Below, one piece after another: positions 33,789 through 52,125 of a DNA stretch of 64,000 nucleotides. Position numbers and translations under genes: made by a program. Within the stretch, counting starts at the first letter, position 1. Each line of letters begins with the position of its first letter. This stretch comes from Marinomonas rhizomae (GTDB lineage: Bacteria > Pseudomonadota > Gammaproteobacteria > Pseudomonadales > Marinomonadaceae), in NCBI RefSeq assembly GCF_024397855.1, contig NZ_CP073343.1:2914001-2978000 (forward strand). Reading direction: 5' to 3'. The notes beneath the pieces are model-generated. The model had not been told where the DNA came from. It saw only the letters and a program-made list of their open reading frames with translations, and searched no databases.

Positions 33789-34631
33789 ATGCAGCATTCG
33801 CCGATTTCTTTTACTAGCCACAGGCGCCAAAAATTTGGCCGTTGCGATACGTTACAGATAGACTCGACGCAACAACAGGCATCATTCGAATCAGCAGAAC
33901 TTGTTGAAGAAGTTCCGTTAGCACTTAGTATCAACGACATTTCTTATGCCGTCATGATGGTAACACCTGTCAATTTAGAGGCCTTTGTCGTCGGCTTTGC
34001 TCGCAGTGAGGGGATTATTGAACATATTAATGATATCCGAGACATTGATGTCCAGCTTTCTCAAACGCACCCAGACATCGAAAGTGTTGCAATCAATTTA
34101 GAGCTAAGCCCACGTCGATTTTCACAATTCAAACAAAGAAGACAAACACATCTTGGCGCAACAGGGTGTGGTTTGTGTGGTATAGAATCATTAACCCAAG
34201 CCATTCCAGTACTACCAAGGCTTCAAGCAAGCCAAGCGATAAAAGAAACAGACTTGCTGACATTAAGAAGCCGTTTATCTGAATTCCAAGCATTGGGCAA
34301 TAAAACAGGGGCGGTTCATGCCGCTTTATTGATTTCACCGCAAGGCGAACCCATTGTTTGCATGGAAGACATAGGTCGGCATAATGCCCTAGATAAAATA
34401 ATCGGCTATGCACTACAGCAAGATATAAACTTACATAACTACAGTGTTTTGATGTCAAGCCGATGCAGTACGGAACTGGTCCAGAAAGCGGTGCGGGTTG
34501 GGCTGTCTAGATTAATTCATTTGGCATCACCAAGTACTCTAGCCGTCAAGCTCGCTCAGCATTATGGGCTTACATTAATTCATTTACCCAAGCACGATAC
34601 ACCGCGAGTGTTCGCCTTTTCGAGCAAATAA
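33789..34631 (+). CDS. fdhD: Formate dehydrogenase accessory sulfurtransferase FdhD
   Basis: Moves sulfur from IscS to the molybdenum cofactor of formate dehydrogenase. The CxxC motif is GCGLCGIE (about residues 126-133), and GAVHAALL, MEDIGRHNALDK and SSRCSTELVQK are family blocks. At 280 aa it is of normal length. No formate dehydrogenase or Moco genes are in the window, so its client lies elsewhere. It converges on trkH with a 19-bp gap and no terminator between. Confidence 0.95.
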   Translation: MQHSPISFTSHRRQKFGRCDTLQIDSTQQQASFESAELVEEVPLALSINDISYAVMMVTPVNLEAFVVGFARSEGIIEHINDIRDIDVQLSQTHPDIESVAINLELSPRRFSQFKQRRQTHLGATGCGLCGIESLTQAIPVLPRLQASQAIKETDLLTLRSRLSEFQALGNKTGAVHAALLISPQGEPIVCMEDIGRHNALDKIIGYALQQDINLHNYSVLMSSRCSTELVQKAVRVGLSRLIHLASPSTLAVKLAQHYGLTLIHLPKHDTPRVFAFSSK

Positions 34632-34650
34632 TGGCATAAGAGCAATATGT

Positions 34651-36588: not shown

Positions 36589-37521
36589 CTATAGCTTACT
36601 TGTCATTTCTGGAAGCACAGCAAAAAGATCACCTACCAAGCCATAATCCGCCACTTGAAAGATAGGTGCGTCTTCGTCTTTGTTTACCGCCACAATCACT
36701 TTGGAGTCTTTCATACCTGCTAAATGCTGAATAGCACCAGAGATCCCAAAAGCCATGTACAAATCGGGCGCGACGATTTTACCCGTCTGGCCAACTTGTA
36801 AATCATTCGATACAAAACCCGCATCCACTGCCGCACGAGAGGCACCGACCGCTGCCCCTAGTTTGTCGGCCAACGCCTCAACCAACGCAAAATTCTCGCC
36901 ACTGCCAACTCCACGACCACCTGACACAATGCGGCTCGCACTGGAAAGATCTGGTCTTGTTGACTCAGTAATATCATCAGATTGCCAACTAGACAAAACA
37001 CTCTCAGCCACAAAATCGATCGTTTCAACAGGACACTTCTGATCATTCTGTTTAATGTTTTTATCAAAAGAAGACGCCCGTACTGTAATGACTTTTGTGG
37101 CATCCAAAGCCGTTACCGTCGCAATCGCATTACCAGCATAAATCGGGCGTTTAAATTGCTCAGCACTCAACACAGCGCAAATATCAGACACCTGCCCAAC
37201 ATCCAATAGAGCCGATACTCTAGGCATGAAGTCTTTTGACTCTGAATTGGACGGCGCAATAATGTGCGAATAGTTTGCCGCTAAATGCACGACCAAATCC
37301 CCCATTGGCTCAGCCAAGGCGTATTCATAAACATCCGCATTGGCACACAACACCTTAGCAACACCAGCAAGGCTCGCCGCCTCATCGGCAACGGACTCAA
37401 CATTTTTACCTACCACCAGCACATGGATGTCATTGCCAATGGCTTGAGCGGCCGTCAAGCCGCATAAAGTAGCAGACGAAAGCGTACTCGAATTATGTTC
37501 TGCAATTAATAAAGTCGTCAT
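36589..37521 (-). CDS. etfA: Electron transfer flavoprotein alpha subunit
   Basis: FAD-binding subunit (310 aa) that takes electrons from acyl-CoA dehydrogenase to ETF:ubiquinone oxidoreductase. The C-terminal FAD motif is seen in [36 protein letters not shown] and [13 protein letters not shown]. The ATG overlaps the etfB stop by one base. Last gene of the nine-gene CoA operon. A housekeeping etfBA pair may also exist elsewhere; this copy is embedded with its likely electron donor, the acyl-CoA dehydrogenase. Confidence 0.96.
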
Positions 37522-38270
37522 TAGATCACCTTCGCTTCATCTTTCAATTTACTGATCAATTCATCCACCGACGCCACTTTAATGCCCGCACTACGAGTTG
37601 AAGGCGCTTCCACTTTATCTAATCGGTAATGAGCCTTTGGCGTTACGCCCAAGTCTGCCAAGGATAAGGTATCGAGTGGTTTACGTTTAGCCTTCATAAT
37701 ATCGGGTAATTTGGCATAGCGAGGTTCATTAAGACGTAGATCCGTCGTTACAATCGCAGGCAATGTCAGGACAACAGTACGTAGCCCGCCATCGATTTCA
37801 CGAGTAACAAGCGCTTTATCGCCGTCGATAACAAGCCTAGAAGCAAAGGTTCCCTGTGGACATTTAATCAAGGCAGCTAACATCTGTCCCATTTGATTGT
37901 TATCAGAATCAATCGACTGCTTGCCAAGAATCACCAATCCAGGTTGCTCTTTTTCAACGACTGCGGCAAAGGCTTTGGCGACATTTAAAGGCTCAATGTC
38001 GCTTTCAGCTTCAACCCAAATGGCACGGTCAGCGCCTAACGCCAGGGCATTACGAAGTTGCTCTTGGCTTTGCGTCGTTCCAACGCTCATAACGATCACT
38101 TCAGATGCCACGCCAGCTTCTTTCAGGCGAACCGCTTCTTCAACAGCGATTTCGCAAAATGGATTCATTGCCATTTTGACATTGGTTAAATCCACATTGC
38201 TTTGATCTGCTTTAACACGAACCTTAACGTTGTAATCAATGACGCGTTTAACACCTACTAAAATTTTCAT
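37521..38270 (-). CDS. etfB: Electron transfer flavoprotein beta subunit
   Basis: AMP-binding ETF subunit, 249 aa. Family marks include [28 protein letters not shown] and [17 protein letters not shown]. The dehydrogenase-docking recognition loop is [14 protein letters not shown], here [20 protein letters not shown]. It is coupled to etfA by a one-base overlap. It lies 20 bp after the thioesterase gene in the same operon. Confidence 0.96.
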
Positions 38271-38290
38271 TCTTTCACTGACCTTTCTGT

Positions 38291-38707
38291 TTAACCATGA
38301 CTCAACATTTTTGCTCGAATGTCATCTGGAATTGTCTTAGCTTTAAGATCACCTTCTGCATTTAGACAGGCCCAGACACGTTTTTCCGTGCATTCGACCG
38401 CTAAGTCACCATCATTAAAAAGCTGATGACGAATCCCAAAGCTGGCACGACCAACCTCAGTAAACTCACTTTTAATAGTAACCTTGTCACCATACTTAGA
38501 AGGTTTAAAAAATTGAGAGCGCGTATCAACCATTGGAAAACCAACGGTCTTTAATACATCGCGAATATATCTAAGCGAAACGCCCATTGCCTCAAATAAA
38601 GCCCCCGTTGACGCGTCAAAATAGGCAAAATAACGCGGGTAAAAAACAATATCGGCGGGATCGCAGTCACCCCACTCAATTTGTACTTGGCGTTCATTGT
38701 TAAACAT
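38291..38707 (-). CDS. Hot-dog thioesterase, 4-hydroxybenzoyl-CoA thioesterase type
   Basis: A 138-aa hot-dog-fold protein. The segment [17 protein letters not shown] closely follows the FGDCDPAGIVWYPNY block of the Pseudomonas 4-hydroxybenzoyl-CoA thioesterase; Asp16 aligns with its catalytic Asp17. In this operon it could release the aromatic acid from its CoA after thiolytic side-chain removal. Related hot-dog enzymes act on other aryl or acyl-CoAs, so the exact substrate is open. It sits 11 bp after the CoA-ligase gene. Confidence 0.85.
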
Positions 38708-38718
38708 GACGCTCTTCC

Positions 38719-40572
38719 TTATAAACTGATAACCAAATCAGAAAGAGGCTCTTGATACAAAAGCTCAATTTGGTCTTCTCGATGAGCTTGCACCGCACGC
38801 TGATTCAACGAACCTTTATCAGTAATTTCATTTGCATCAATACTCGGTGGCACAGCTTGCAACAAAATACGTTGAACCACAGTCGAACTACCGGTGCTGT
38901 TTTTAGCAAAATCTCTTAACTTCTGCTGAAAAGCATCACGTACTGCTGAGTGTGCAATAACTTGCTCGTTCGTCTCCACCAAATCATGAGGAAGAATCGC
39001 CTGACAATGAGCCCAATCAGGAAAGATCAATGCACTGATATAGCCACGGTTCGTACCACATAACACAACATCTTGTACAAATGGCGCAAAGGCACTGATA
39101 AATTTAGCACGCAATGTACCTGCACTGACCCAAGTACCACTATCGAGTTTAAAGTCTTCCGATACACGCCCGTCAAAACGGAAGCCTCGCTGCGGTTCAT
39201 TTTCATCAAGATATGCTATCGCATCGCCTAAGCAATAATAGCCTTCTTCATCAAACGCTTTTGCGGTCAATTCTGGTTGACGCCAGTAACCCGGCATCAC
39301 AGTTTCAGCTTTCACACGCGCTTCTAACTTACCTTCGTTTGGAACAAGCTTGATAGACACACCTGGCGCAGGAACACCAATAACACCAGAAGTTGATTCT
39401 TCAACAGAAGCAAACGTCGCTGACGGCGCTGTTTCGGTACAGCCTAGCCCAGTGACCATAGGGATTTTCTTGCCAGTATATTGAATCGCCAGCGCATCCA
39501 AATCATCCCAAATATGCTGAGCCAAACCTGCAGCGGCAAAGAAGGTAAACTGTAAGCGCGCAAAAAACTTCTCAGCTAACTCACTGTCCGCTTTCAAATT
39601 TTTCACTAATAACTCAAAACCTTTTGGCACATTGAAATACACGGTTGGAGATATCTCCGCCAAATTCTGCAATGTCTTAGCGAACAGTTTTTCAGTTGGC
39701 TTGCCATCATCAAGATACAAACTACCGCCGTTATACAAAGCGATACCAATATTATGGTTACCGCCAAAAGTATGGTTCCAAGGTAGCCAATCAACCATAA
39801 TAGGCGGCTGATCTTGCAAGAACTGCATTACTTGATGAATCATCACCTGATTGGCGCAAATCATACGCTGAGTATTGATAACGCCTTTTGGCATACCTGT
39901 GGTACCAGAGGTGAAAAGCACTTTGGCAATCGTATCGCCATTCACTTGCTCGTTCATTTCATCAATCAAAGCCGACTCAGGAAAGTCCCAAAAGGATTGA
40001 AAAGCCACAATTGGATTGTCAATTTGTTGTGCCTTGGTATCCCCTTTGATCACCACTACGGGAATTTCCGTATCTTGGCAAACCGCTTTAATTGCCTTTT
40101 CATAAGGTGCCAACTCATCCACCACAATCATGCCGGGTGTCAAAATATCCACAATACCTTGCAGCTTAGAATAATCCGTCGCGATAAGAGAATAAGCAGG
40201 CGACAAAGGAGAATGAGCCACACCCACATACATACCAGCCAAAGCAAGCATCAAATGCTCAACGCTGTTGCCACATAAAAAAACGATGGGACGCTCAGCA
40301 GAAACTGGCTGAGTGATTAACCAAGATGCTATTTTTCGTACTCGGGCTACCGCTTGTGAGTAGGTAACTTCCTGCCAGTCACCTTGCTCATCACGCTGCG
40401 CAACAAATATTCGATCGGGGGTTTTATCAGCCCAGTATTCAAGCTGATCTGTCCAGCAACGAGCATACTCATCGAGCGCTTTTTGGCTATTGATGATTTG
40501 CACTCCGCCGTCGCGATTTTCAATGTCGATAGGATGCGCTACAACTTTTATTGGATGAAATTCACCGTTCAT
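38719..40572 (-). CDS. fcs: Feruloyl-CoA synthase-like acyl/aryl-CoA ligase
   Basis: AMP-forming ligase of 617 aa, the length of Fcs-type enzymes. The ATP loop is LFTSGTTGMPKGV and the core motif is GLGCTETAPS; RFDGRVSEDFKL and SGTWVSAGTLR are marks of the feruloyl-CoA synthase subgroup. It would activate a hydroxycinnamate, phenylpropanoate or related acid at the start of the pathway. The start at 40572 is chosen by GGGAG 8 bases upstream over the open frame to 40659. It lies 134 bp after the acyl-CoA dehydrogenase gene, the largest gap in the operon. Confidence 0.88.
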   Translation of the reverse strand: MNGEFHPIKVVAHPIDIENRDGGVQIINSQKALDEYARCWTDQLEYWADKTPDRIFVAQRDEQGDWQEVTYSQAVARVRKIASWLITQPVSAERPIVFLCGNSVEHLMLALAGMYVGVAHSPLSPAYSLIATDYSKLQGIVDILTPGMIVVDELAPYEKAIKAVCQDTEIPVVVIKGDTKAQQIDNPIVAFQSFWDFPESALIDEMNEQVNGDTIAKVLFTSGTTGMPKGVINTQRMICANQVMIHQVMQFLQDQPPIMVDWLPWNHTFGGNHNIGIALYNGGSLYLDDGKPTEKLFAKTLQNLAEISPTVYFNVPKGFELLVKNLKADSELAEKFFARLQFTFFAAAGLAQHIWDDLDALAIQYTGKKIPMVTGLGCTETAPSATFASVEESTSGVIGVPAPGVSIKLVPNEGKLEARVKAETVMPGYWRQPELTAKAFDEEGYYCLGDAIAYLDENEPQRGFRFDGRVSEDFKLDSGTWVSAGTLRAKFISAFAPFVQDVVLCGTNRGYISALIFPDWAHCQAILPHDLVETNEQVIAHSAVRDAFQQKLRDFAKNSTGSSTVVQRILLQAVPPSIDANEITDKGSLNQRAVQAHREDQIELLYQEPLSDLVISL

Positions 40573-40706
40573 TTTTTTGCTCCCACTCTCATCTTTTGCC
40601 CTTAAGGGCTCTATGATTATTTTTATGGCTAGAGTTTTAGGGAGTGGTTTATTAACCACTGCCGAATTGTTATTTTTATCTCGACTTCAGACCTAAATGG
40701 CCTGCT

Positions 40707-42455
40707 TCAAAATTTATATTTGCCAAGACCTAACCCAGCGTTTTCAACGACCTTCAATGCCGCCATGGCAGACGGCAAACGATAAGCACCGTAAAATACG
40801 GATAGCGCCTTAATATTCTGCACGTAAGACTCATCCGTATTTTCTTGCGCTTGCTGATAAGCCAACACATTCAATAACTGCCATGTGCAACATAAGATCC
40901 CCATGGCTTCCAAGAAGGGCACAGACACAGCCAGTAAATCTTCATGGTCCATATCAGGATTCAGCAAATGTGAATGCAGTAACGACGTCATCTTATTAAT
41001 CACTTGCTGAGAGTCTTGCGCCATAGAGGCAAATACCTCGTCGGACTCAAAAGACTGAGCCAACTGAGTTACTTCTGCTAATAACTCAGTTAAGGCTTTA
41101 CCCTGATCGCCGCGCACTTTTCTAAACATCAAGTCACGGGCTTGAATACCAGTGGTGCCTTCATAAATCGTCGTCACTCGAGCATCACGCATAATTTGCG
41201 CCACACCAGTTTCTTCTACAAAGCCCATACCACCAAATACCTGAACCACTTGACCCGCCATGACATTCGCACGTTCGGTTGCAAAGGCTTTAAAGATCGG
41301 CGTTAGCAAAGCCACTCGGTCTTTTTTCAGCGGATCATCTGTCACTTCAGTCGCATCAATTTGCGCCGCAATCTGATAACCCACGGCACGCAGCGCAAAG
41401 GTTTCCGAACGTATTTCTAACAACATCCGTTTTACATCAGCATGTTCAACAATGGCCACTTTTTCACCTTGGCTATTGGCACCCTGAGTTCTTTCTTGGG
41501 CATATTCCAATGCACGCTGGTATCCTAATTCACCTAACGCCACACCTTGCAGGCCACAACTTAATCGAGCCTCGTTCATCAAGACGAACATCGCCATTAG
41601 GCCTTGATTCAACTCACCGACTAATTCACCAATACAGTCATCTTGATCACCGTAACTAATAGAGCACGTTGGGCTACCATGAAGTCCCATTTTGTGTTCA
41701 ATACCGGTACAGCGAACATCGTTAAACTCTCCTAATGCACCATCATCAGCAACACGATGTTTAGGTACGATAAATAGCGAAATACCGCGACTGCCTGCTG
41801 GTGCATCTGGTGTTCTAGCCAAAACCAAATGGGCAATATTGTCGGTAAGATCATGATCACCGTAAGTAATGTAGATTTTCTGGCCTTTAATTTTATAAGT
41901 GCCGTCAGCTTGTTGAATCGCCTTAGTATTCAGTGCGCCTAAATCCGATCCTGCATTAGGCTCAGTTAGCGCCATCGCCACGGTCCATTCACCGCTAACA
42001 ATCTTTGGTAAATAACGATTTTGAATCGATTCATTGGCAAAATTTAAAAGAATTTCTGAACCACCTTGCGCCAAAGCTTGAAACATCACAAAGGCCAAAT
42101 TCGCTGACAGCCACATTTCGTTTACAGGCTGGGCAATGTATTTTGGCAGACCTTGACCACCAAACTCCTCAGGCAATGCCAAACCAATCCAGCCAGATTC
42201 GGCAAATTGCTGATACGCCTCTTTCCAGCCATCAGCTGTAATCACTTTCCCGTCTCGAAAGCGACAACCTTGCACATCACCAACTTGGTTCAGTGGAGCA
42301 AGCACACCAGTAGCGAACTTAGCCGCTTCTTCCATTACCGCATTGGCCAATTCAGGGTCGAAACCGTCTAACGATTCAACGCCAGCCAGACCTTGCTGTT
42401 GATAGGCTTGTGCCACCAGCAACTGCATATCTTTGTAAGGAGCTTGATAGTTCAT
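40707..42455 (-). CDS. Acyl-CoA dehydrogenase (long form with extra C-terminal domain)
   Basis: FAD enzyme that makes the alpha,beta-double bond and passes electrons to ETF. Blocks seen are MALTEPNAGSDLGAL, KIYITYGDHDL, VFGGMGFVEETGVAQIMRD and the acidic TIYEGTTGIQA; the C-terminal AcdA-type extension brings it to 583 aa. The start is ATG at 42455 (or 42458) with GGAG upstream. With EtfAB in the same operon the electron path is self-contained. It would be needed for saturated side chains such as dihydrocinnamates. Fatty acyl-CoA is the main alternative substrate. Confidence 0.93.
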   Translation of the reverse strand: MNYQAPYKDMQLLVAQAYQQQGLAGVESLDGFDPELANAVMEEAAKFATGVLAPLNQVGDVQGCRFRDGKVITADGWKEAYQQFAESGWIGLALPEEFGGQGLPKYIAQPVNEMWLSANLAFVMFQALAQGGSEILLNFANESIQNRYLPKIVSGEWTVAMALTEPNAGSDLGALNTKAIQQADGTYKIKGQKIYITYGDHDLTDNIAHLVLARTPDAPAGSRGISLFIVPKHRVADDGALGEFNDVRCTGIEHKMGLHGSPTCSISYGDQDDCIGELVGELNQGLMAMFVLMNEARLSCGLQGVALGELGYQRALEYAQERTQGANSQGEKVAIVEHADVKRMLLEIRSETFALRAVGYQIAAQIDATEVTDDPLKKDRVALLTPIFKAFATERANVMAGQVVQVFGGMGFVEETGVAQIMRDARVTTIYEGTTGIQARDLMFRKVRGDQGKALTELLAEVTQLAQSFESDEVFASMAQDSQQVINKMTSLLHSHLLNPDMDHEDLLAVSVPFLEAMGILCCTWQLLNVLAYQQAQENTDESYVQNIKALSVFYGAYRLPSAMAALKVVENAGLGLGKYKF

Positions 42456-42468
42456 CATCAACTCCGTA

Positions 42469-43236
42469 TTACTTCGCAGCCATACGAATCGCACCGTCAA
42501 GACGAATCACTTCGCCATTCAGCATGCCATTTTCGATGATGTGTTGTGCCAAAGACGCGTATTCATCAGGCTCACCAAGACGCGGTGGAAATGGCACAGA
42601 TTCACCCAAAGATTTTTGCACTTCTTCCGGCAAAACATCCATCATTGGCGTTTTAAATAATCCCGGAGCAATGGTCATCACTCGAATACCAAAGCGTGCT
42701 AATTCACGAGCAATTGGCAAAGTCATGGCGCACACACCACCTTTGGAAGCGGCATAACCTGCTTGCCCGATCTGACCATCAAACGCCGCTACAGACGCTG
42801 TATTAATAATTACGCCGCGCTCTAAATTGGCTTCTTGCTCGTTATGCTGCATTTTGTCAGCAACCAAACGAATCATATTAAAAGTACCAATTAAGTTAAC
42901 CGATACCGCACGTTGAAATGATGCCAAGCGATGTGGCCCTTCACGACCGACAATACGCTCTGCGCCTGGAATACCTGCGCAGTTCACTAAACCACTAATA
43001 GGACCAAAGGCTTCAACGGCTTGATTAATCGCACTTTGTACCGAATTCTCATCAACGATGTCTGTCACGCAACCTTGTACGCGCTCACCTAAATCAGATT
43101 TAACGCGTGCTAAACCTTCTTCATTCACATCGGCTAGGGTCACTTTTGCTCCTAAACCATGTAGACGACGGGCAACCGCCTCGCCAATCCCCGAAGCTGA
43201 ACCTGTCACCACAAAATGTTTATCTTGAATTTGCAT
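42469..43236 (-). CDS. SDR-type (type II) 3-hydroxyacyl-CoA dehydrogenase
   Basis: A 255-aa short-chain dehydrogenase. NAD-binding GSASGIGEA (12-20), Asp in LADVNEE favouring NAD, catalytic Ser in NTASVAA, and YAASKGG. The sequence TGSASGIGEAVARRLHGLGA and IAPGLFKTPMM resemble HSD17B10/type II HADH enzymes that oxidise 3-hydroxyacyl-CoA. It lies 13 bp before the acyl-CoA dehydrogenase gene and 50 bp after the crotonase gene, supplying the third beta-oxidation step. Confidence 0.92.
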   Translation of the reverse strand: MQIQDKHFVVTGSASGIGEAVARRLHGLGAKVTLADVNEEGLARVKSDLGERVQGCVTDIVDENSVQSAINQAVEAFGPISGLVNCAGIPGAERIVGREGPHRLASFQRAVSVNLIGTFNMIRLVADKMQHNEQEANLERGVIINTASVAAFDGQIGQAGYAASKGGVCAMTLPIARELARFGIRVMTIAPGLFKTPMMDVLPEEVQKSLGESVPFPPRLGEPDEYASLAQHIIENGMLNGEVIRLDGAIRMAAK

Positions 43237-43286
43237 CTTAATACTCCTTACCTTGCTGTTATTTTTATGACAAAGGGCAAAACTTC

Positions 43287-44045
43287 TTAGCTTTTTTTAC
43301 GATTCAAAAACGCATCAATACGTGCTTTTACTTCATCGCTGGTTTGCGTAATGCCACAAATCAATGATTCAGTGTACAGACCATCTTGTGCCGACATATT
43401 GCTAATACGGCTCAGACCTGTGGTCATGGCCCAGTTGGAGTATTTCGAGTTTTTGCCGATGCCTTCTGCGATTTCAAAGGCTTTTGCCAAGGCTTCACCA
43501 TTGCCAACAACATAATGTGCCAAGCCAATACGCAAACCTTCTTCGGCTCTTACATCACGCCCCGTCAGCATCATTTCTGTCATGCGGCTGGCACCAATCA
43601 CATTGGATACATTTACCGATGCGCCACCGCCAACAAAGATGCCATGTTTGCCCTCAGGCAGACGGTAAAAGGTATTTTCTTCACTGACGCGAACATGGGC
43701 ACAAATAGCCAATTCCAAACCACCGCCAATCACCGCGCCATGCATAGCAGCCACGACAGGAATGCCTGAATCACTAATATGACCAAACACGCGATGCCAC
43801 ATATTAGAGTGCTTCACCACTTCAAATGGCTCACGGGCTTTGTGCTCTTGCAAATCCAGACCAGAGCAAAACTCCGGGCCGCTACCTGAAAACACAATGA
43901 CATTAACGTCATCGGTTAAATTCAAAAACACGTGTTCAATCTCAAGACATAAGCTGTCATTGATGGCATTTTTCTTTTCTGGGCGATTAAGCTGCAAATG
44001 CGCCACGCCATTTTCTACGGAATAGTTAATAAATTGATAAGTCAT
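43287..44045 (-). CDS. Enoyl-CoA hydratase/isomerase (crotonase family)
   Basis: A 252-aa crotonase. Oxyanion-hole blocks are FSGSGPEFCSGLDL and MHGAVIGGGLELAI; both acidic positions used for hydration appear to be kept (Glu in GGGLELA and Glu in RLPEGKHG). It therefore looks like a hydratase and not a dehalogenase or isomerase. It is not evidently the hydroxycinnamoyl-CoA hydratase-lyase type, which is about 275 aa. It would hydrate the enoyl-CoA made or supplied upstream. Confidence 0.9.
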   Translation of the reverse strand: MTYQFINYSVENGVAHLQLNRPEKKNAINDSLCLEIEHVFLNLTDDVNVIVFSGSGPEFCSGLDLQEHKAREPFEVVKHSNMWHRVFGHISDSGIPVVAAMHGAVIGGGLELAICAHVRVSEENTFYRLPEGKHGIFVGGGASVNVSNVIGASRMTEMMLTGRDVRAEEGLRIGLAHYVVGNGEALAKAFEIAEGIGKNSKYSNWAMTTGLSRISNMSAQDGLYTESLICGITQTSDEVKARIDAFLNRKKS

Positions 44046-44117
44046 CTCGGATTACCTTTAAAATTCTTTATGGAACGCCTCAAACTCTTATTGGCGAGCG
44101 CAGTAGTCATGCCGTTT

Positions 44118-45320
44118 TTATCGGTCAGAAACCTTAATCACCACGGCCATGCCAGTGTCTCCAGCAGCACAACCCGTGAATAAACCGTAACCGCCGCCGT
44201 TGATGACCAATTCTTCAATAAGCTCAATAATGGCGCGCATGCCAGTTGGCCCTTGAGGGTGTCCCCAAATCAATGAGCAGCCGTAGTTATTCATCGTCAT
44301 CACATCAACATCCATGGCTTTGGCAAAAGCCACATCGTTCACAGCAAATGGATTGTGTGTTTTGATCGCTTTGACTTGTTTAATATCGACTCCCGCTACA
44401 GCTAGAGCGCGTTTTGCCGCTTCTATTGGCGCCGCTGGCATGTAAGCAAGATCATCTCGGGCTTGGCCAAAACCTAGCACTTCTACTTTAATTTCAGGGC
44501 GAGAAGTGAGTGAAGCAACCTCTTCAGAACGACAAAGAATCGCAGAGGCATTACCATCAGCAGGATGCGTTTGGTTACCAAAGGTAATCACGCCACCTTC
44601 TTGAATGGGTTTTAGTTTTTGCAAGCCCTCCAGCGTCGTTGGGAAAACCCCTTCATCGCCAGTAATTACCGTGTCTTCTTTTTTGAAGTTAGCCGTTGGC
44701 ACAGACAAAGGCAGCGTCATATAACGCTTTTGAAAAGCTTGATCGTCTTTCAAAGCATCTTGATATTGTTCATAACGTCTATAAGTTACTAAATCCAATT
44801 CTTCACGAGTAATATCAAAACGTTTGGCAACGTTTTCACCCGTTTGCATCATCGAATGGCCGCCAACACAATCGTTCATCATGTTATAAGTTACTTGGTC
44901 TTCAGATGCTCCAGCTGGACCTTTCGCATTTGGGTAATAAATATGCGGGCCATTTGAACAGCGATCTGCCGTCATCAAGAGAGAGATATTCGCCATGCCA
45001 CAGACGATTTCTGATGCTGCTGCAAACAAACCACGGGCACTGGTCGCGCACACTTGGTTAACCGCATGACCTGCTGTATTTACCGCACCAATATCATACA
45101 AAGGCCAAGGTGCGCCGTTAAAAGATTGATACTGATTAACCGTCATGCCCAATACGCCTGAATCGAACACCTTTGGATCAATGTTGCGTTTTGCCAATTC
45201 AGCTTTCGCTACGTGCGCAGCGAATTTCATCGAGTGCAGATGCTGAAGTGAACCTTGCCATTTGGTAAACGGTGTACTCCAGTAAGCGCCGTAAGGAATT
45301 TCTACATTCTTGATAGACAT
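44118..45320 (-). CDS. Thiolase (acetyl-CoA acyltransferase-like)
   Basis: A 400-aa thiolase. Nucleophile Cys91 is in NQVCATSARG, the His in NPFAVNDVAF-type position, and the C-terminal Cys and HP-G-TG motif appear as WGHPQGPTG and GCAAGDTG. Both differ slightly from the fatty-acid thiolase consensus, which suggests a specialised substrate such as a 3-oxo-arylpropionyl-CoA. The start at 45320 has GAGGA upstream; the open frame to 45437 lies inside the CoA-transferase gene and is rejected. It follows that gene by 31 bp. Confidence 0.9.
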   Translation of the reverse strand: MSIKNVEIPYGAYWSTPFTKWQGSLQHLHSMKFAAHVAKAELAKRNIDPKVFDSGVLGMTVNQYQSFNGAPWPLYDIGAVNTAGHAVNQVCATSARGLFAAASEIVCGMANISLLMTADRCSNGPHIYYPNAKGPAGASEDQVTYNMMNDCVGGHSMMQTGENVAKRFDITREELDLVTYRRYEQYQDALKDDQAFQKRYMTLPLSVPTANFKKEDTVITGDEGVFPTTLEGLQKLKPIQEGGVITFGNQTHPADGNASAILCRSEEVASLTSRPEIKVEVLGFGQARDDLAYMPAAPIEAAKRALAVAGVDIKQVKAIKTHNPFAVNDVAFAKAMDVDVMTMNNYGCSLIWGHPQGPTGMRAIIELIEELVINGGGYGLFTGCAAGDTGMAVVIKVSDR

Positions 45321-45351
45321 AAAGTGTCCTCGCTTATTTATTCTTGTTATT

Positions 45352-46920
45352 TTACTGTTGGCTAGCTGCTGCCATGATGTCGCCCAAACCGCCCCACTGC
45401 TCAGCAAAGATTTCTGCTGGCATATTTTTAAGGTCATCAGCGATGATTGGACGGAACGCCATCACACTTAACACGTCTTTTTCTAGATCTAGTCCCGGTG
45501 CAATTTCGGTTAGAACCATGCCTTCTTGGCGCAGCTCCAACACACAACGTTCAGTGACAAACACGACAGGTTGATGATTTTCTCTCGCAACAGACCCACT
45601 GAAAGTAATGTGATCAACGGCTTCAACAAACTTCTGCACCTTACCTTCTTCCAACACTTTCATCTTGCCATTTTCGAAACCAAGTTTGGCACCGTTGACT
45701 AATGTGCCGCAGAACACCACTTTCTTAGCGCTCTGGGAAATATTAATAAAACCACCAGGCCCAACCACTTTAGGGCCAAATTTACTGACGTTTAAATTGC
45801 CATTTTTATCCGCTTGAGCCAGTCCTAAGAAAGCAATATCCAAACCGCCGCCGTCATAAAAATCGAACTGAGCTTCATGCTCAATAATCGCATCCGCATT
45901 CCACGCCGCACCAAAATCACCGCCAGACGCGGGAATACCTCCGTAAGTGCCGAGCTCGGTTGTTAGAGTAAATAAATGGGAGACTTTTTCTTCTGCGGCA
46001 ATTGCGGCGACACCGTCTGGCATACCGATACCAAGGTTCACCATGACATTCGCTTTCAATTCCATCGCAGCACGGCGAGCAATCACTTTTCGGTCGCTGA
46101 ATGCCATAGGTGGTAAAGCGTTTAACGGTACACGTGAGTTACCGGCTAAACCTGGGTTGTAGGTTGTGGTGATGGTTTGTTTGTGATCTTCGGCCGGCGC
46201 GACGGTAACGTAATCCACTAAAACGCCTGGCACTTTGACTTCTTTAGGATGTATTGAATGACGTTCAGCAATGTATTTCACTTGCGCAATAACGATACCA
46301 CCGCTGTTTTTCGCTGCCTGCGCCATAGGCAAAATTTCCGCCAACATGGCTTCTTCTTCTACAGACAAGTTGCCATTTTCATCAGCCGTAGTGGCACGGA
46401 TAACCACCACATCTAACGGGAATTTTTTATAAAGCAGCCACTCTTCGTCTTCAATATCGATGCGTTTCACTAGATCTTCAGTGGTTATAGATGTCACTTT
46501 ACCACCACTAATCAAAGGATCAACGTAGGTTCCCATGCCAACTTTGGTAATCACACCAGGCTTGTTTCCTGCGATTTGACGCCACATGGTGGTTAATACA
46601 CCTTGAGGAAGAAGATAAGCCTCAATCACATTATCTGTGATCATTTGCGCCATCTTTGGAGCTTGACCTGTGTGACCAGAAATCAAACGCTTCACCAAAT
46701 TTGGATGCGCCATATGTGACATGCCTGCATCTCTACCATCACCACAACCACAGTCATGAATAAGCGTTAATTGCTGTGGATGACCTGTTTTTTCAAAACG
46801 CTGCTCAACAGCTTTGGCGATCGCTTCTGCAAAATAAGACATTCCTACGGTAGACCAAGCGACGTTGGCACCATCTGGAATTAAGTCAGCAGCTTGCGCT
46901 AGGGAAATAACCTTGCTCAT
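45352..46920 (-). CDS. Fused alpha-beta CoA-transferase (YdiF/acetate-type)
   Basis: A 522-aa family I CoA-transferase with both halves fused, like YdiF and propionate CoA-transferases. The catalytic Glu is in LTTELGTYGG and the GIGMPDGVAAIAAEE oxyanion region precedes it. It swaps CoA between an acyl-CoA and an acid such as acetate. First gene of the operon, divergent from the first dctP. It may provide a second, ATP-free way to activate the imported acid, or may recycle CoA from a short-chain product; both are inference. Confidence 0.92.
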   Translation of the reverse strand: MSKVISLAQAADLIPDGANVAWSTVGMSYFAEAIAKAVEQRFEKTGHPQQLTLIHDCGCGDGRDAGMSHMAHPNLVKRLISGHTGQAPKMAQMITDNVIEAYLLPQGVLTTMWRQIAGNKPGVITKVGMGTYVDPLISGGKVTSITTEDLVKRIDIEDEEWLLYKKFPLDVVVIRATTADENGNLSVEEEAMLAEILPMAQAAKNSGGIVIAQVKYIAERHSIHPKEVKVPGVLVDYVTVAPAEDHKQTITTTYNPGLAGNSRVPLNALPPMAFSDRKVIARRAAMELKANVMVNLGIGMPDGVAAIAAEEKVSHLFTLTTELGTYGGIPASGGDFGAAWNADAIIEHEAQFDFYDGGGLDIAFLGLAQADKNGNLNVSKFGPKVVGPGGFINISQSAKKVVFCGTLVNGAKLGFENGKMKVLEEGKVQKFVEAVDHITFSGSVARENHQPVVFVTERCVLELRQEGMVLTEIAPGLDLEKDVLSVMAFRPIIADDLKNMPAEIFAEQWGGLGDIMAAASQQ

Positions 46921-47269
46921 TTTCTACCCTCACATGTCTTTTATAATTGTTTAGTAAGTTGGGCTTTAGTTTGCTGACGTTACTTTGCCAGACATAATTA
47001 TGTTGTACACCACAACTATTTTTTTTACAAACATTTTATGTTGGCGTTACTTTTTTTGAATAGCCAGTGTAAAAATCCAATAAGTGTAAATGTTGAAAGA
47101 AACAACAATTTATGTGAAAAACAAACTATGATCTAGAAAGTAATAGTTTGATGGCAGTCGACTCGATATTGCGTAAACGCTCTTGGTAGCGTCATAAAAA
47201 AGCTATGTAACGTAGTCACCACACTGTTGCTAGGTCTCGATTAATAAAAATAAAACAAAGGTGAATAGA
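46921..47269. promoter_or_regulatory. Divergent control region between CoA operon and TRAP genes
   Basis: About 350 bp without a gene. It holds TGTTG-N7-CAACA (47091-47107), followed by AATTTATGT, and AAACTAT-N13-ATAGTTT (47123-47149). The first resembles a better palindrome upstream of the second dctP. A MarR gene at the far end of the TRAP cluster is the likely binder. A strong AAAGGTGA ribosome site precedes dctP. Confidence 0.55.
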
Positions 47270-48304
47270 ATGAAAAAAATCCCTCTAGCAGGCTTGGCCT
47301 TATTAGCTGGCTCAATGATGTCTATGACTGCTTTCGCAGCAGAGCCTGAATATAAGCTCAAACTACACCACATGCTGCCACCAGCATCTAATGCCCATAG
47401 CAACTTTCTAGAACCTTGGGCAAAAAAAGTGGAAGCAGAATCGAATGGGCGTATTCACATTGATATTTATCCGGCTATGCAATTAGGCGGCAAGCCGGCT
47501 CAACTTTTCGACCAAACTCGCAAAGGTATTGTCGATATTTCTTGGACTGTCGCAGGCTATACTCCTGGACGTTTCCCTAAAATGACCTCTTTTGAACTGC
47601 CCTTTATCCCAGGCTCGGCTCAAGCAACCAGTATGGCTTTACAGGAATATGCCGAAACAGAAATGCAAGATGAACTAAAAGATGTTCATCTACTGGCGGT
47701 TCATACTCACACACCGGGCTCTCTTCACTCACGTGATAAAAGAATTAAAACGCTTGAAGACCTAGAAGGATTAAAAGTACGTGCGCCAAATAAAGCCATG
47801 TCTGAAGCCTTCGATCTTGTGGGCGCCAATACGGTATTTTTACCCGTAACAGAAATGCCCAGCGCTCTTTCTAAAGGTGTAATAGACGTAGCTGTATTGC
47901 CATATGAAGTGGTTCTACCAATGAAAATCCATGAACTTGTTGGGCACCATACTGAGTTTAAAGGCACCGGCTTATACACAAATACCTTTATTTTTTCGAT
48001 GAATAAAAAAGTATATGACAGCATGCCTCTCGACTTACAAAAAGTGATCGACAATAACTCAGGCATTACGTTAGCGGGCCACATTGGCAAGCTTTTCGAT
48101 GACTACGAATTATTTGCACGTAAATTCGCTGTGGATCGTGGTAATACTTTTGATTATATCGAAGGAGCAGAACATCAACATTGGGAAAAAGCCATGTCCC
48201 CAATCGCAGAAAAATGGGTGAAAGACATGAATGAGGATGGCTATGATGGCCAGCGCTTACTTGATAAAACGAAATCCTTGATTCAAAAATATAATGACCT
48301 CTAA
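47270..48304 (+). CDS. dctP: DctP-type TRAP solute-binding protein, copy 1
   Basis: Periplasmic acid-binding protein (344 aa) with a signal peptide ending AFAA. The DctP fold marks are KLHHMLPP, GRIHIDIYPAMQLGGK, the carboxylate-binding Arg in LEGLKVRAPNK, and FLPVTEMPSALSKGVIDV. It is very similar throughout to copy 2, which lies 344 bp downstream. The start at 47270 is set by AAAGG and not the GTG at 47261. A terminator-like hairpin separates it from copy 2. Given the operon across the promoter, an aromatic or aryl-alkanoic acid is a candidate ligand. Confidence 0.93.
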   Translation: MKKIPLAGLALLAGSMMSMTAFAAEPEYKLKLHHMLPPASNAHSNFLEPWAKKVEAESNGRIHIDIYPAMQLGGKPAQLFDQTRKGIVDISWTVAGYTPGRFPKMTSFELPFIPGSAQATSMALQEYAETEMQDELKDVHLLAVHTHTPGSLHSRDKRIKTLEDLEGLKVRAPNKAMSEAFDLVGANTVFLPVTEMPSALSKGVIDVAVLPYEVVLPMKIHELVGHHTEFKGTGLYTNTFIFSMNKKVYDSMPLDLQKVIDNNSGITLAGHIGKLFDDYELFARKFAVDRGNTFDYIEGAEHQHWEKAMSPIAEKWVKDMNEDGYDGQRLLDKTKSLIQKYNDL

Positions 48305-48648
48305 GAAGCATCATTGTTAACCTGAAAACAGCGCTCTTCCCTTAGAGCGCTGCTCTTATAGGGATATCTCACAAAACACTGTTATAACGAAGGATTAGGA
48401 ATAATCTAAATAGGTCACTTTCACCCTTTTTTAAGCAACCATACCTATTTTGAATACCTTGGGTAAAAAATCTATCTTCCAGATTGTTGAAATGCACAAC
48501 AATCTATGTCAAAAAGGAGTGAGTTTTAGGCAATAATAAGGAAATGACGCCTGCATAACTTTGTCATCTAAAGTGATGACATACCTAAAATGTCATTAAC
48601 GACTCCAAAAGCAAGACTCGTATAACAAAAAAAATAAAGGTGATCACA
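48305..48648. promoter_or_regulatory. Region between the two dctP copies, with terminator and palindromes
   Basis: CAGCGCTCT / AGAGCGCTG (48329-48352) forms a hairpin after copy 1. ATTGTTG-N7-CAACAAT (48483-48503) is a perfect palindrome followed by CTATGT, matching the region ahead of copy 1. TGTCATC-N6-GATGACA (48562-48581) is a second palindrome absent from copy 1. Copy 2 therefore probably has its own regulated promoter. No gene is seen. Confidence 0.6.
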
Positions 48649-49686
48649 ATGAGAAAATTCAAACTACAAAGCTTGGCATTAATTGCTGGCTCTATCATGT
48701 CCATCAATGCCCTAGCGGCAGAGGCGGAATACACCTTCAAGCTTCATCACATGCTTCCACCAGTCTCTAATGCACACACAAACTTTCTACAACCTTGGGC
48801 AGATAAGGTAGAAGAAGAATCTAACGGCCGCATCCATATTGATATCTATCCAGCCATGCAATTGGGTGGAAAACCACCACAACTTTTCGATCAGACTCGT
48901 AAAGGGGTTGTTGATATTACTTGGACGGTTGGCGGCTATACTCCCGGACGCTTCCCGAAGGCCACTGTATTTGAACTGCCGTTTATGCCTCTAAACGCTC
49001 GTACCACAAGCATGGCTTTACAAGAATATGCAGAAAAAGAAATGCAGGATGAACTAAAAGACGTTCACTTACTTGCCATGCACACCCACTTCCCAGGCTC
49101 CCTCCATTCCCGTGATAAAGACATCAAATCTCTTGAAGACCTTGATGGACTAAAAGTACGTGCGCCAAACAAAATGATGGCTGATGCTTTCGGTATTTTG
49201 GGTGGCAATACGGTTTTCATGCCGGTTCCTAGCATGCCAAGCGCCCTATCAAAAGGCGTTATCGATGTAGCTGCGCTACCATTTGAAGTCGTTAAACCAT
49301 TAAAAATTGATGAATTAGCACCACACCATACTGAGTTCAAAGGTGATCGTGGCCTCTACACTCAATTTTTCATTTTCGCGATGAATAATGATTCTTACGC
49401 AAAACTTCCAGCGGACCTGAAAGCCGTCATAGACCGAAATTCTGGCGTGAATCTAGCAGGCTTTATTGGTGACGCATTCGATGCGTATGAAGTAGGCGCT
49501 CGTGGTGATGCAGTAAAACGCGGTAATACTTTCAGTACCATTGAAGGTGCCGAATACGATCGCTGGAAAACAAAACTTGCGCCTGTCACTGAGCAATGGC
49601 TAGAAGAAATGAATGATGAAGGTTATGACGCACAACGTCTTCTAGACGAAGCCAAAGACCTCATTAAGAAATACGAAAACTTTTAA
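48649..49686 (+). CDS. dctP: DctP-type TRAP solute-binding protein, copy 2
   Basis: A 345-aa paralogue of copy 1 with the same layout: signal peptide ending ALAA, KLHHMLPP, the binding Arg in LDGLKVRAPNK and MPSALSKGVIDV. Differences cluster near the ligand region (VTEMPSA versus VPSMPSA; VVLPMKIHEL versus VVKPLKIDEL), which could change specificity. It lies 33 bp before dctQ, so it is the copy most closely tied to the permease. The start has AAAGG upstream. Confidence 0.93.
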   Translation: MRKFKLQSLALIAGSIMSINALAAEAEYTFKLHHMLPPVSNAHTNFLQPWADKVEEESNGRIHIDIYPAMQLGGKPPQLFDQTRKGVVDITWTVGGYTPGRFPKATVFELPFMPLNARTTSMALQEYAEKEMQDELKDVHLLAMHTHFPGSLHSRDKDIKSLEDLDGLKVRAPNKMMADAFGILGGNTVFMPVPSMPSALSKGVIDVAALPFEVVKPLKIDELAPHHTEFKGDRGLYTQFFIFAMNNDSYAKLPADLKAVIDRNSGVNLAGFIGDAFDAYEVGARGDAVKRGNTFSTIEGAEYDRWKTKLAPVTEQWLEEMNDEGYDAQRLLDEAKDLIKKYENF

Positions 49687-49719
49687 GCCATACCGTTACC
49701 GTACGTAGGATGATTTAAC

Positions 49720-50223
49720 ATGATACGTTTTACTACCGACTTACAGCGCTCTTTCCTAGGGCGCGCCTCTGACATATTAGCACTGACAGGTGGGTTTATC
49801 ATGTTAGTGGTAGCGGCGGTTACCGTCGCTAGCATTATTGGACGAACCACGATTGGTCAATCAATAGAGGGAGATTATGAGATAACAGAAATGGGGCTAG
49901 CCATGGCCATCTTTCTCTTTCTCCCTACTTGTTATATCCGTAAAGGCCACGTCATTGTTGACTTGTTTACGGCTAACTGCAAACCAAACACCTTGCTCAC
50001 TTTAGGAATAATTAGTGACCTTGTGTTTACCCTTGTTTCGTTTACTTTTGCGTATCGAATGACCCTAAGTGGCTTTGAAGCAAAAGAATATTTAGAGCAA
50101 AGTATGCTACTTGAACTTCCCACTTGGTGGACTTTTATTGTTGGTGTCATTGCTATGACACTTTGTGGTCTGTGCGGCCTATATCGCTTGTCCGCAACAC
50201 TTCGTGGAGGTAATCATGAGTAA
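49720..50223 (+). CDS. dctQ: TRAP transporter small permease DctQ
   Basis: A 167-aa inner-membrane protein with four hydrophobic segments (about 20-45, 60-80, 95-118, 138-158). The block GDYEITEMGLAMAIFLFLPTCYIRKGHVIVD is typical of DctQ. It forms the membrane complex with DctM, whose start overlaps its end by 8 bp. Confidence 0.93.
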   Translation: MIRFTTDLQRSFLGRASDILALTGGFIMLVVAAVTVASIIGRTTIGQSIEGDYEITEMGLAMAIFLFLPTCYIRKGHVIVDLFTANCKPNTLLTLGIISDLVFTLVSFTFAYRMTLSGFEAKEYLEQSMLLELPTWWTFIVGVIAMTLCGLCGLYRLSATLRGGNHE

Positions 50224-51535
50224 TATCGAACTGGCCTTTTTAATGATGGCTGTGCTGATGGTCTTAATGAGCATCCGCATTCCGATTGCATTGTCCATGT
50301 TAGTGTGTGGCGCATTTGGTTACGCCATGATCGGTGGCTTCCCTGCTCTATTGGAATATTTAGGCACCGCGCCCGTTTCAAAGTTCTCTAGTTATGATTT
50401 ATCGGTTGTACCGCTTTTCCTACTAATGGGAGAGTTAGCCACACGCTCTGGTATTACAGCAGAACTTTTTAGAACCTGTAATACATGGATAGGCCGTCAA
50501 CGTGGTGGTATTGCCATGGCGGCTATTGCAGGTTGCGCTGCATTTGGCGCTATTTGTGGATCTTCGTTAGCAACAGCGTCCACTATGGGGAAAGTAGCGC
50601 TTCCTGAAATGAAGCGTCTTAATTATTCTGGCAGTCTTGCTGCTGGCGCACTAGCGGCAGGCGGTACATTAGGGATTTTGATTCCGCCATCAATGGTACT
50701 CATCATCTTTGCGGTACTGACTGAGCAAAACATCTCTAAGATGTTTATTGCAGCCTTTGTTCCAGGCTTTTTAGCAGCTGGCGGTTATATTCTTGCCATT
50801 GCTATTTATGTGCGTTTGTACCCAGATGCTGGTCCACGCGGTGAAAAAACGACCTTTGCCCAAAAAATCAAATCCACCAAGGATGTTTGGCACATCACGG
50901 GGATTTTCTTAATTGTTTTGGGTGGGATTTATTTAGGTGTTTTCACACCCACTGAAGCCGCGTCTGTTGGGGTTATCCTGACAGCAATCCTAGCATTCAC
51001 TCACGGTAAAATGCGTCTTGATGGCTTGTTAGTCTGCTTAATGAAAACGGCTGTTTCTTCTGCAATGATCTTTTTCATAGTCTTGGGGGCAGATTTATTT
51101 AGTGTCTTTATTGCGCTATCAAGATTACCAGACTTAGGGGTAGAGCTGATTCAAAACTCAGGTTTGTCGCCATACACTATATTGGTTTGCATGCTGCTTA
51201 CCTATTTGGTCATGGGCTGCTTCTTAGACAGTTTGGCGATGATTTTGCTAACCATTCCAATCTATTTCCCAATGGTTATGGCAATGGACTTTGGTATTCC
51301 ACAAGCAGATTTAGGTATTTGGTTCGGCATACTCGCTTTGATCGTTGTCGAAGTGGGATTAATAACGCCCCCTGTTGGTATGAACGTTTTTATTATCAAA
51401 TCGTTTGATGATTCGTTGAAACTAAAAGAGTGTTTTAAAGGTGTGATTCCATTCCTCCTCTCTGACTTTGTTAGGGTGGCTTTGTTAATACTTTTCCCAA
51501 GTATTACCCTCGGCTTGGTTCACCTAATTGGCTAA
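50216..51535 (+). CDS. dctM: TRAP transporter large permease DctM
   Basis: A 439-aa transport subunit with about 12-13 hydrophobic segments. Conserved stretches are AICGSSLATASTMGKVALPEM, AGGTLGILIPPSMVLI, GVFTPTEAASVG and VGLITPPVGMNVFII. It moves the bound acid with Na+. The ATG at 50216 has TGGAGG in front; the open frame to 50165 lies inside dctQ. It serves both DctP copies presumably. A 13-bp GC hairpin follows (51543-51576). Confidence 0.95.
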   Translation: MSNIELAFLMMAVLMVLMSIRIPIALSMLVCGAFGYAMIGGFPALLEYLGTAPVSKFSSYDLSVVPLFLLMGELATRSGITAELFRTCNTWIGRQRGGIAMAAIAGCAAFGAICGSSLATASTMGKVALPEMKRLNYSGSLAAGALAAGGTLGILIPPSMVLIIFAVLTEQNISKMFIAAFVPGFLAAGGYILAIAIYVRLYPDAGPRGEKTTFAQKIKSTKDVWHITGIFLIVLGGIYLGVFTPTEAASVGVILTAILAFTHGKMRLDGLLVCLMKTAVSSAMIFFIVLGADLFSVFIALSRLPDLGVELIQNSGLSPYTILVCMLLTYLVMGCFLDSLAMILLTIPIYFPMVMAMDFGIPQADLGIWFGILALIVVEVGLITPPVGMNVFIIKSFDDSLKLKECFKGVIPFLLSDFVRVALLILFPSITLGLVHLIG

Positions 51536-51542
51536 TGAAAAC

Positions 51543-51576
51543 CAACAAGAGCCGGGAATTATGCCGGCTCTTGTTG
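51543..51576 (+). terminator. Stem-loop after dctM
   Basis: A perfect 13-bp stem (CAACAAGAGCCGG and its complement) with an 8-base loop lies 7 bp past the dctM stop. A T-run is poor, so some read-through into marR is possible. Confidence 0.65.
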
Positions 51577-51666
51577 CATAGAGAAGACTCTAAACTGTTT
51601 AGCATTACACCAGATTAGTTTTTTTATATTACAATACGGGTTCATCTGATTAAAAATGAGACTTAA

Positions 51667-52125
51667 ATGGCTGACGACACAAAAAAAACAGACCAACCAG
51701 TGGACTTTGGGATACTCAATAGCTTAGTTGGTTATCGCCTACGTCGCGCTCAAATGAATTTCTTTAGCAAGTTTTCTGAAGTGTGTTCTGATCTTGGCAT
51801 TAGTCCTGGTTTATTTGCCATTATTGCCATCGTGGAACGTAACCCTGGCTTAACTCAAACGGCTGTCGCTCAAGCCCTCGGTAATGACAGATCGGCCATG
51901 GTGGCCGCGGTCGATAAGCTAGAGCAAATGGACATTATTGAACGTCGACCAGCCATTAATGATCGCCGTTCTTATGCTTTATTTATGACTAAAAAAGGTG
52001 AAAAGTTTTTCTTAACGTTAAGCGATCGCGTCATGGAACATGAACAAATCATGGCTGCACGCTTAGAAGGTGAAAATGAATTGGAGTGGCTTTTGAAAAC
52101 GCTAGACACCTTGTCTCATGGCTAG
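51667..52125 (+). CDS. MarR-family transcriptional regulator
   Basis: A 152-aa winged-helix repressor type protein. Helix-turn-helix is LTQTAVAQALGNDRSAMVAAVDKLEQM; the wing is RRPAINDRRSYALFMTKKG. MarR regulators (for example HcaR and CouR) commonly control hydroxycinnamate operons and respond to the CoA thioester. Placed at the end of the TRAP cluster, it is the natural candidate to bind the palindromes before both dctP genes. The inducer is not known. Confidence 0.92.
   Translation: MADDTKKTDQPVDFGILNSLVGYRLRRAQMNFFSKFSEVCSDLGISPGLFAIIAIVERNPGLTQTAVAQALGNDRSAMVAAVDKLEQMDIIERRPAINDRRSYALFMTKKGEKFFLTLSDRVMEHEQIMAARLEGENELEWLLKTLDTLSHG

Follow-up and report, generated by a model that had tools for sequence, protein, structure and literature searches.

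Gene content, conservation and operator-like sites of a putative CouR-type hydroxycinnamate island in Marinomonas rhizomae

The closest described relatives of the island reported here are two cou systems and one arylpropanoate pathway. In the cou regulon of Rhodococcus jostii RHA1, a MarR-family regulator with several inverted-repeat operators is combined with activation by coenzyme A (CoA), deacetylation of the side chain and an aromatic acid as product; the last step is described as that of the amidohydrolase CouO, which yields the free acid (PMC4737184). In Rhodopseudomonas palustris, genes for the phenylpropenoate tripartite ATP-independent periplasmic (TRAP) transporter TarPQM lie beside ligase and crotonase genes under CouR; the account of that system gives a non-beta-oxidation pathway and an additional ABC transporter (PMC3610893). 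Aromatoleum aromaticum EbN1 is described as degrading 3-(4-hydroxyphenyl)propanoate by beta-oxidation via 4-hydroxybenzoyl-CoA, with uptake assigned to an ABC transporter and the product passed onward to benzoyl-CoA (PMC9765128), and a paper on a Comamonas states that it is still not clear which enzymes carry out the beta-oxidation that leads to 4-hydroxybenzoyl-CoA (PMC6307125). The island lies at positions 36589 to 52125 of a 64,000-nucleotide stretch (the window; contig NZ_CP073343.1, positions 2,914,001 to 2,978,000) of the Marinomonas rhizomae genome, a single contig of 4.37 Mb. It shares ligase, hydratase and dehydrogenase genes with the Rhodococcus cou regulon, but has a thiolase, a CoA-transferase and a thioesterase in place of the hydrolytic ending, as well as a TRAP transporter, and no CouO-type amidohydrolase was found among its genes.

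An earlier note on this DNA, made from its letters alone, had listed nine co-oriented catabolic genes, with two DctP genes, dctQ, dctM and a marR gene divergent from them. All fourteen were found in place as intact open reading frames (ORFs), with domains that agree with the labels. The genes and putative operators are as follows (window coordinates, strand in brackets).

36589..37521 (-), EtfA, electron transfer flavoprotein (ETF) alpha subunit; ETF-alpha families matched under their cut-offs, PF01012 over its cut-off
37521..38270 (-), EtfB, ETF beta subunit; PF01012 over its cut-off
38291..38707 (-), 4HBT-fold acyl-CoA thioesterase; 4HBT domain, GDCDPA motif kept
38719..40572 (-), ATP-dependent aryl-CoA ligase of PRK12582 type; AMP-binding domain, NF009232 under its cut-off
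40707..42455 (-), acyl-CoA dehydrogenase (ACD) with PF12806 C-terminal domain; Acyl-CoA_dh domains, optional module within the genus
42469..43236 (-), short-chain dehydrogenase/reductase (SDR), probable 3-hydroxyacyl-CoA dehydrogenase; adh_short, glycine motif and YxxxK present
43287..44045 (-), enoyl-CoA hydratase; ECH_1, NF006013 over its cut-off, GGGLEL and LPEG kept
44118..45320 (-), thiolase; Thiolase_N/C, under every NCBIfam thiolase cut-off shown
45352..46920 (-), family I CoA-transferase of single-chain YdiF/FadX architecture; PF01144 (CoA_trans), FadX-type model under its cut-off
47002..47016 (-), putative operator O1, GTTGTGGTGTACAAC, before the catabolic operon; repeat and conservation
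47091..47108 (-), putative operator O2, TTGTTGTTTCTTTCAACA, before DctP1; repeat pattern
47270..48304 (+), DctP1, TRAP solute-binding protein (SBP) of a presumed aromatic-acid group; NF037995 passed
48485..48502 (-), putative operator O3, TTGTTGTGCATTTCAACA, before DctP2; repeat pattern
48649..49686 (+), DctP2, second TRAP SBP; NF037995 passed
49720..50223 (+), DctQ, small TRAP membrane subunit; DctQ domain
50216..51535 (+), DctM, large TRAP membrane subunit; DctM domain
51667..52125 (+), MarR-family regulator; MarR domain, nearest solved structure named CouR

We consider it highly probable that the island is a CouR-type regulon for the uptake and beta-oxidative deacetylation of 4-hydroxycinnamates, and of their dihydro forms by way of an optional ACD/ETF module; gene content, conservation, the repeated operator-like sites and the presence of downstream genes were observed directly. 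In the proposed pathway, p-coumarate, ferulate and probably caffeate would be imported by the TRAP transporter, as its SBP group suggests, and converted by the ligase to an aryl-propenoyl-CoA, which by analogy with CouR would lift the MarR regulator off three operators. Hydratase, SDR and thiolase would then, judging from their domains and order, produce acetyl-CoA and 4-hydroxybenzoyl- or vanilloyl-CoA, from which the thioesterase, the CoA-transferase or both would release 4-hydroxybenzoate or vanillate, to be degraded by PobA, VanAB-like and LigAB proteins encoded elsewhere. The unsaturated 4-hydroxycinnamate is probably the primary substrate, the ACD/ETF module being an add-on through which 4-hydroxylated dihydro forms are likely extra substrates. 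Import, side-chain shortening and electron removal by ETF are all represented, as had been claimed for every step; the description of the island as self-contained was overstated, because the ring-attack genes sit elsewhere in the genome.

The nine minus-strand genes span 46920 to 36589, and the spacing between neighbours ranges from -1 to 134 bp. The starts of the thiolase (45320), DctP1 (47270) and DctP2 (48649) were judged likely from start context and are not those of the longest ORFs. The thiolase, hydratase, SDR, dehydrogenase, ligase, thioesterase and CoA-transferase each carry the motifs expected of them, with residues presumed to be catalytic; the thiolase retains Cys (VNQVCAT), His (GHPQG) and Cys (GCAAGDTG), and in the hydratase the two Glu residues that are putatively catalytic (GGGLEL, LPEG) are both kept. 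For the thioesterase, the two solved structures that score highest (63 and 52 bits) bear the name 4-hydroxybenzoyl-CoA thioesterase, and the ligase has only two other matches in the genome, both partial and 30% identical. A promoter and terminator scan returned six promoter-like sites against 4.9 expected, and no terminator; no ETF-quinone oxidoreductase was found among the ORFs of positions 33000 to 56000 of the window.

In order to gain insight into conservation, a genome collection was scanned with patterns drawn from the ligase; the best 80 of 157 relatives represented 78 distinct loci, so the counts lean toward near relatives of this ligase. These loci include 19 from Marinomonas and 10 from Pandoraea, which are not independent, and gene presence was called at thresholds that we set; on either side of the ligase, more than 8 kb is visible in 59 of the 78, and the others are truncated, so that not all absences are real and MarR counts were left aside. 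The order CoA-transferase, thiolase, hydratase, SDR, ligase was kept in all 18 Marinomonas loci with the stretch in view (the contig of the 19th, L009, begins at the ligase) and in a Halomonas-labelled metagenome-assembled genome (MAG), L026, which argues that the arrangement is not chance. The ACD gene was present in 13 of the 18, whereas in L016, L019, L020, L022 and L034 the SDR gene is directly followed by that of the ligase. EtfB was found in 10 of 19 Marinomonas loci, namely 9 of the 13 with ACD, none of the five without it, and L009, in which the ACD position is off the contig. The thioesterase was present in 13/19; among the 18 loci with the CoA-transferase in view it was present in 12 and missing near the cluster in the other six. 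In three of the 19 (L018, L023, L024), the cluster is followed by a gene for ETF-quinone oxidoreductase. The core thus consists of five genes, those for CoA-transferase, thiolase, hydratase, SDR and ligase, and ACD and the flavoprotein are an optional module. A core without ACD in five of 18 loci, a count that covers the cluster neighbourhoods, is as expected for an acid that already holds an alpha,beta double bond.

A second EtfBA-like pair was found at G000:C1:2828479-2829644 of the same genome, and the idea that the island holds the only ETF of the genome, placed there by chance, was rejected. This pair stands together with an AMP-dependent ligase gene and a PF12806-type ACD gene (G000:C1:2828479-2833996), a block that is a candidate for an aliphatic or dimethylsulfoniopropionate (DMSP)-related acyl-CoA pathway.

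The nearest solved chain to the MarR regulator was 6c28, named CouR (65.6 bits; next best 33.6), while 5cyv, which we take to be CouR of RHA1, scored 25.5 bits. CouR is described as released by p-coumaroyl-CoA in Rhodococcus (PMC4737184) and as responding to the same compound in R. palustris (PMC3610893). O1 fits GTTGTNNNNTACAAC in all 19 Marinomonas intergenic regions (the window and 18 loci), within a block of near-invariant columns, and O2 was recognisable in 13 of the 19 (two changes at most; weak hits in L019 and L020 left out). The alignment did not include L026, which has a poorer version only, or L028 and L029, which have a different repeat. With one mismatch allowed, TTGTTGTNNNNNTCAACA occurred twice in the 64 kb against 0.16 expected, a number reached by one of 100 shuffles; GTTGTNNNNTWCAACA, a pattern drawn from the three sites, had five matches in the 4.37 Mb genome, three here and two elsewhere, with three for the reversed control. 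Three operator-like sites at three presumed promoters fit one local regulator; at the level of sequence, the island is of CouR type both in the nearest relative of its regulator and in its putative inverted-repeat sites at promoters.

DctP1 and DctP2 are identical at 241 of 346 aligned positions. Both gave 284-328 bits against 5i5p/5i7i, 5iga/5izz, 5im2, 7nr2, 7nsw and 7nrr, and the other listed solved SBPs about 134 or less. Of these, 5i5p, 5iga, 5im2, 7nr2, 7nsw and 7nrr are presumed binders of benzoate, hydroxybenzoate or phenylpropanoids. As a control, the TRAP SBP encoded beside HpaD (3,4-dihydroxyphenylacetate dioxygenase) in the same genome gave 208 bits with 4p56 and 99-145 with the six entries. 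The conserved Arg of TRAP SBPs binds the carboxylate of the ligand; it lies in GLKVRAPN (residues 168-175 of both DctP constructs), and for DctP1 it aligned with R of the five chains shown. TarP of R. palustris is reported to bind coumarate, ferulate, caffeate and cinnamate (PMC3610893). An aromatic or hydroxycinnamic ligand, which had been proposed from the resemblance of the ligase and thioesterase only, thus gained support from the SBP group, the CouR-like MarR protein, the linkage to pobA and vanA in relatives and the downstream genes of the same genome, described below. The two binding proteins, which had been offered as a distinguishing feature, are a lineage-variable duplication: there are one or two SBPs across Marinomonas, and none near the cluster in L019 and L020.

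Single DctP proteins were nearest to DctP1 in some Marinomonas and to DctP2 in others, a pattern such as an old duplication with differing loss might leave. A different TRAP transporter is encoded beside the HpaD dioxygenase gene (L101 6859-10684, within G000:C1:3012000-3028000), its SBP being nearest to 4p56; it is perhaps a second aromatic-acid importer.

For the fate of the ring, the genome encodes PobA (over its cut-off), LigAB with quinate/shikimate-type genes and a PcaQ-like gene, a second LigB-type protein with an oxalomesaconate tautomerase, and a Rieske protein with a VanA_C domain, and it has a reductase-like gene. Neither BoxB nor an intradiol dioxygenase was found in it, and none of the four Rieske proteins found (one VanA-like, two GbcA and one of 120 residues) is of benzoate type; for these reasons a 4-hydroxylated ring is a better match than an unsubstituted one. 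Hydroxycinnamates would seem to be usable in this genome, and unsubstituted cinnamate would seem to stop at benzoate. Among the 78 loci, pobA was found in 13 and vanA in four, 2-11 kb from the ligase (17 hold one or the other), and in L028 and L029 a pobA-pobR-marR set is divergent to hydratase, SDR, ACD and ligase genes. A Marinomonas isolate near M. communis is reported to have grown well on 4-hydroxybenzoate, with an optical density (OD) of 0.94 at 1 d, and weakly on ferulate (0.44 at 10 d); in the same report every isolate supplied with ferulate had vanillate, and no 4-hydroxy-3-methoxystyrene, in its medium, and three Marinomonas genomes are said to encode a protocatechuate 4,5-dioxygenase cluster (PMC7540876). 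The genome announcement of M. fungiae (L023 here) mentions putative genes or clusters for ferulate and p-coumarate but gives no list of them (PMC5843745).

The island differs from Rhodococcus cou in how the pathway would end. Relatives of the L029 and L035 amidohydrolases occurred in 24 of the 78 loci, and a thiolase of the island type in 20, never together. The CoA-transferase occurred in the same 20 loci as the thiolase (20/20), and the thioesterase in 16, never with the amidohydrolase; a further five loci, whose thiolases are 22-26% identical, fall outside the island-type count, and none of the five has the amidohydrolase. Because 18 of the 20 thiolase and CoA-transferase loci belong to one genus, and in L031 both genes lie several kb from the ligase, this is a pattern and not a test. 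The amidohydrolase of L029, which we read as CouO-like, gave no match when used as query against the M. rhizomae genome, in a search without a positive control. L029 itself, from an Oceanospirillaceae MAG, has hydratase, SDR, ACD and ligase 55-78% identical to those of the island, in the same order where in view (L027 shows SDR onward), but the amidohydrolase replaces thiolase, CoA-transferase and thioesterase, and pobA is nearby.

We infer a thiolytic last step in this island. Thiolysis should leave an aroyl-CoA, which has to be freed before PobA or vanillate demethylase can act, whereas hydrolysis gives the free acid directly; this would explain the presence of thioesterase and CoA-transferase. 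Since the CoA-transferase was kept in 18/18 Marinomonas loci and the thioesterase is missing in 6/18, the former may be the main release step. More tentatively, and with some doubt on our part, the CoA-transferase could pass CoA from 4-hydroxybenzoyl-CoA (or acetyl-CoA) to the incoming hydroxycinnamate, with the ATP-dependent ligase mainly priming the cycle; if true, CoA recycling would make this an ATP-saving thiolytic variant, alternative to the hydrolytic CouO variant. The fused CoA-transferase itself, which had been taken as a mark of novelty, has an ordinary and common YdiF-type architecture of 522 residues in a single chain; 7038 of 7999 candidates scored at E <= 1e-150.

In Bisbaumannia pacifica (L031 15480-21428), a CoA-transferase (63% identical) and a thiolase (46%) are encoded next to a TRAP transporter of another type, in the neighbourhood of the ligase but separate from it. 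In L047 (Falsiroseomonas) and L052 (Acetobacteraceae), the ligase is accompanied by a thioesterase with 50% identity and by a thiolase that is only distantly related (about 25%), a pairing that is possibly an independent thiolytic version.

Could the same genes serve another chemistry? Hydratase-lyases, which would cleave hydroxycinnamoyl-CoA to an aromatic aldehyde and acetyl-CoA and leave SDR and thiolase to serve something else, presumably lack one of the two Glu positions of ordinary hydratases, and the hydratase of the island keeps both. We regard this route as improbable: no aryl aldehyde dehydrogenase was found among the island genes, SDR and thiolase were kept in 18/18 Marinomonas loci, and on these two grounds the classical form of the reading was rejected. 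What speaks for it is that CouR and TarPQM go with a non-beta-oxidation cou cluster in R. palustris (PMC3610893), and that the TRAP-bearing L035 (Phyllobacteriaceae MAG) has hydratase and ligase genes and no matches to the SDR or thiolase; L035 does, however, hold the amidohydrolase, a CouO-like partner. A Dmd-type island for DMSP-related methylmercaptopropionate, or another non-aromatic, aliphatic acyl-CoA island, is very unlikely in our estimation. The best solved relatives of the hydratase include 4izb, 4izc and 4izd, which we take to be DmdD of DMSP metabolism, the ACD carries PF12806, one thiolase relative (L123) lies beside a fatty-acid-type fused hydratase/3-hydroxyacyl-CoA dehydrogenase, and the host is marine. 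Set against these are the SBP group, the CouR-like regulator, the linkage to pobA and vanA, a ligase that belongs to another subfamily, and the candidate aliphatic ligase/ACD/EtfBA block elsewhere in the genome; DmdD-type chemistry is not known to require an SDR, a thiolase or an aryl ligase. A third possibility is a main substrate that is saturated or unhydroxylated (phenylpropanoate or cinnamate) and ends in benzoate. The copy in the window has ACD and EtfBA beyond the pair elsewhere in the genome, beta-oxidation of 3-(4-hydroxyphenyl)propanoate is described in A. aromaticum (PMC9765128), and the M. communis-like isolate is reported to have grown on benzoate (OD 0.74 at 6 d; PMC7540876), so a stop at benzoate is not genus-wide. 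We nevertheless think such a substrate quite unlikely for M. rhizomae, given the five of 18 Marinomonas clusters without ACD and a genome in which BoxB, a benzoate-type Rieske oxygenase and an intradiol dioxygenase were not found.

Besides the hydratase relatives, the L123 thiolase and the growth on benzoate, several observations weigh against the hydroxycinnamate assignment. The ligase missed its nearest NCBIfam model (NF009232, acyl-CoA synthetase; 715 bits against a cut-off of 777), and the solved structures most similar to it are those of carboxylic acid reductases and general acyl-CoA ligases. The SBP entry 7nqg, which is perhaps TarP of R. palustris itself, fell into the lower group at 132-134 bits, so that a TarP-type assignment of the two DctP proteins is tentative. 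An O1-type site is no rarity in 64 kb, since with one mismatch allowed at least one occurred in 27 of 100 shuffles. In Marinomonas, neither pobA nor vanA stands beside the island (0/19); of the 13 loci with linked pobA, ten are the non-independent ones of Pandoraea, in which some 11 kb separate pobA from the start of the ligase; and NCBIfam does not name the VanA_C Rieske protein VanA. The report on Marinomonas isolates assumed a ferulate route via vanillin (PMC7540876). Relatives of the thiolase, sought across the class (369 genomes, at most about five candidates scored per genome), gave 10 matches at E <= 1e-60 including its own genome, or nine among 368 others; the nine loci were inspected, with eight ORFs of five loci characterised by family search. 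Their settings are mixed: L122 and L129 are beside a ligase of this kind, L126 and L128, from a single genus, have genes for BcrAD/BadFG-type ATPases in the vicinity (in L126 accompanied by TRAP genes and an HGD-D gene), L124, L127 and L130 gave no clear signal, and L125, a further point against, lies beside hydantoinase/oxoprolinase and TRAP genes. The thiolase family alone is therefore no marker of an aromatic substrate.

At the protein level, the ligase of the window matches that of Marinomonas foliarum CECT 7731 (L025) with 100% identity. Over about 2.2 kb across the ligase gene (window 38801-41050) the DNA is 99-100% identical, with 84-99% in neighbouring 250-base steps, and this patch looks like recombination within the genus; DctP1 and DctQ are 81% and 74% identical to those of L025, and DctP2 and DctQ are nearer to L010, L013 and L021. 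Neither the window (33789-36105) nor L010, where trkH and fdhD adjoin, has a match to a gene for an oxidoreductase-like protein of 775 residues that stands near fdhD in 6 of 7 Marinomonas stretches compared.

As we read it, the island works like a CouR-regulated hydroxycinnamate pathway that differs from Rhodococcus cou in its ending, and neither the fused CoA-transferase nor the twin SBPs is what is new; among the matches listed in the open-licence literature, we recognised no description of this unit in Marinomonas. Together these data provide a complete candidate gene set, with transporter and operator-like sites, for the removal of the side chain of lignin-derived hydroxycinnamates in a marine genus, and the division between thiolase/CoA-transferase and amidohydrolase is a testable split between two endings of one pathway that would differ in energy cost.

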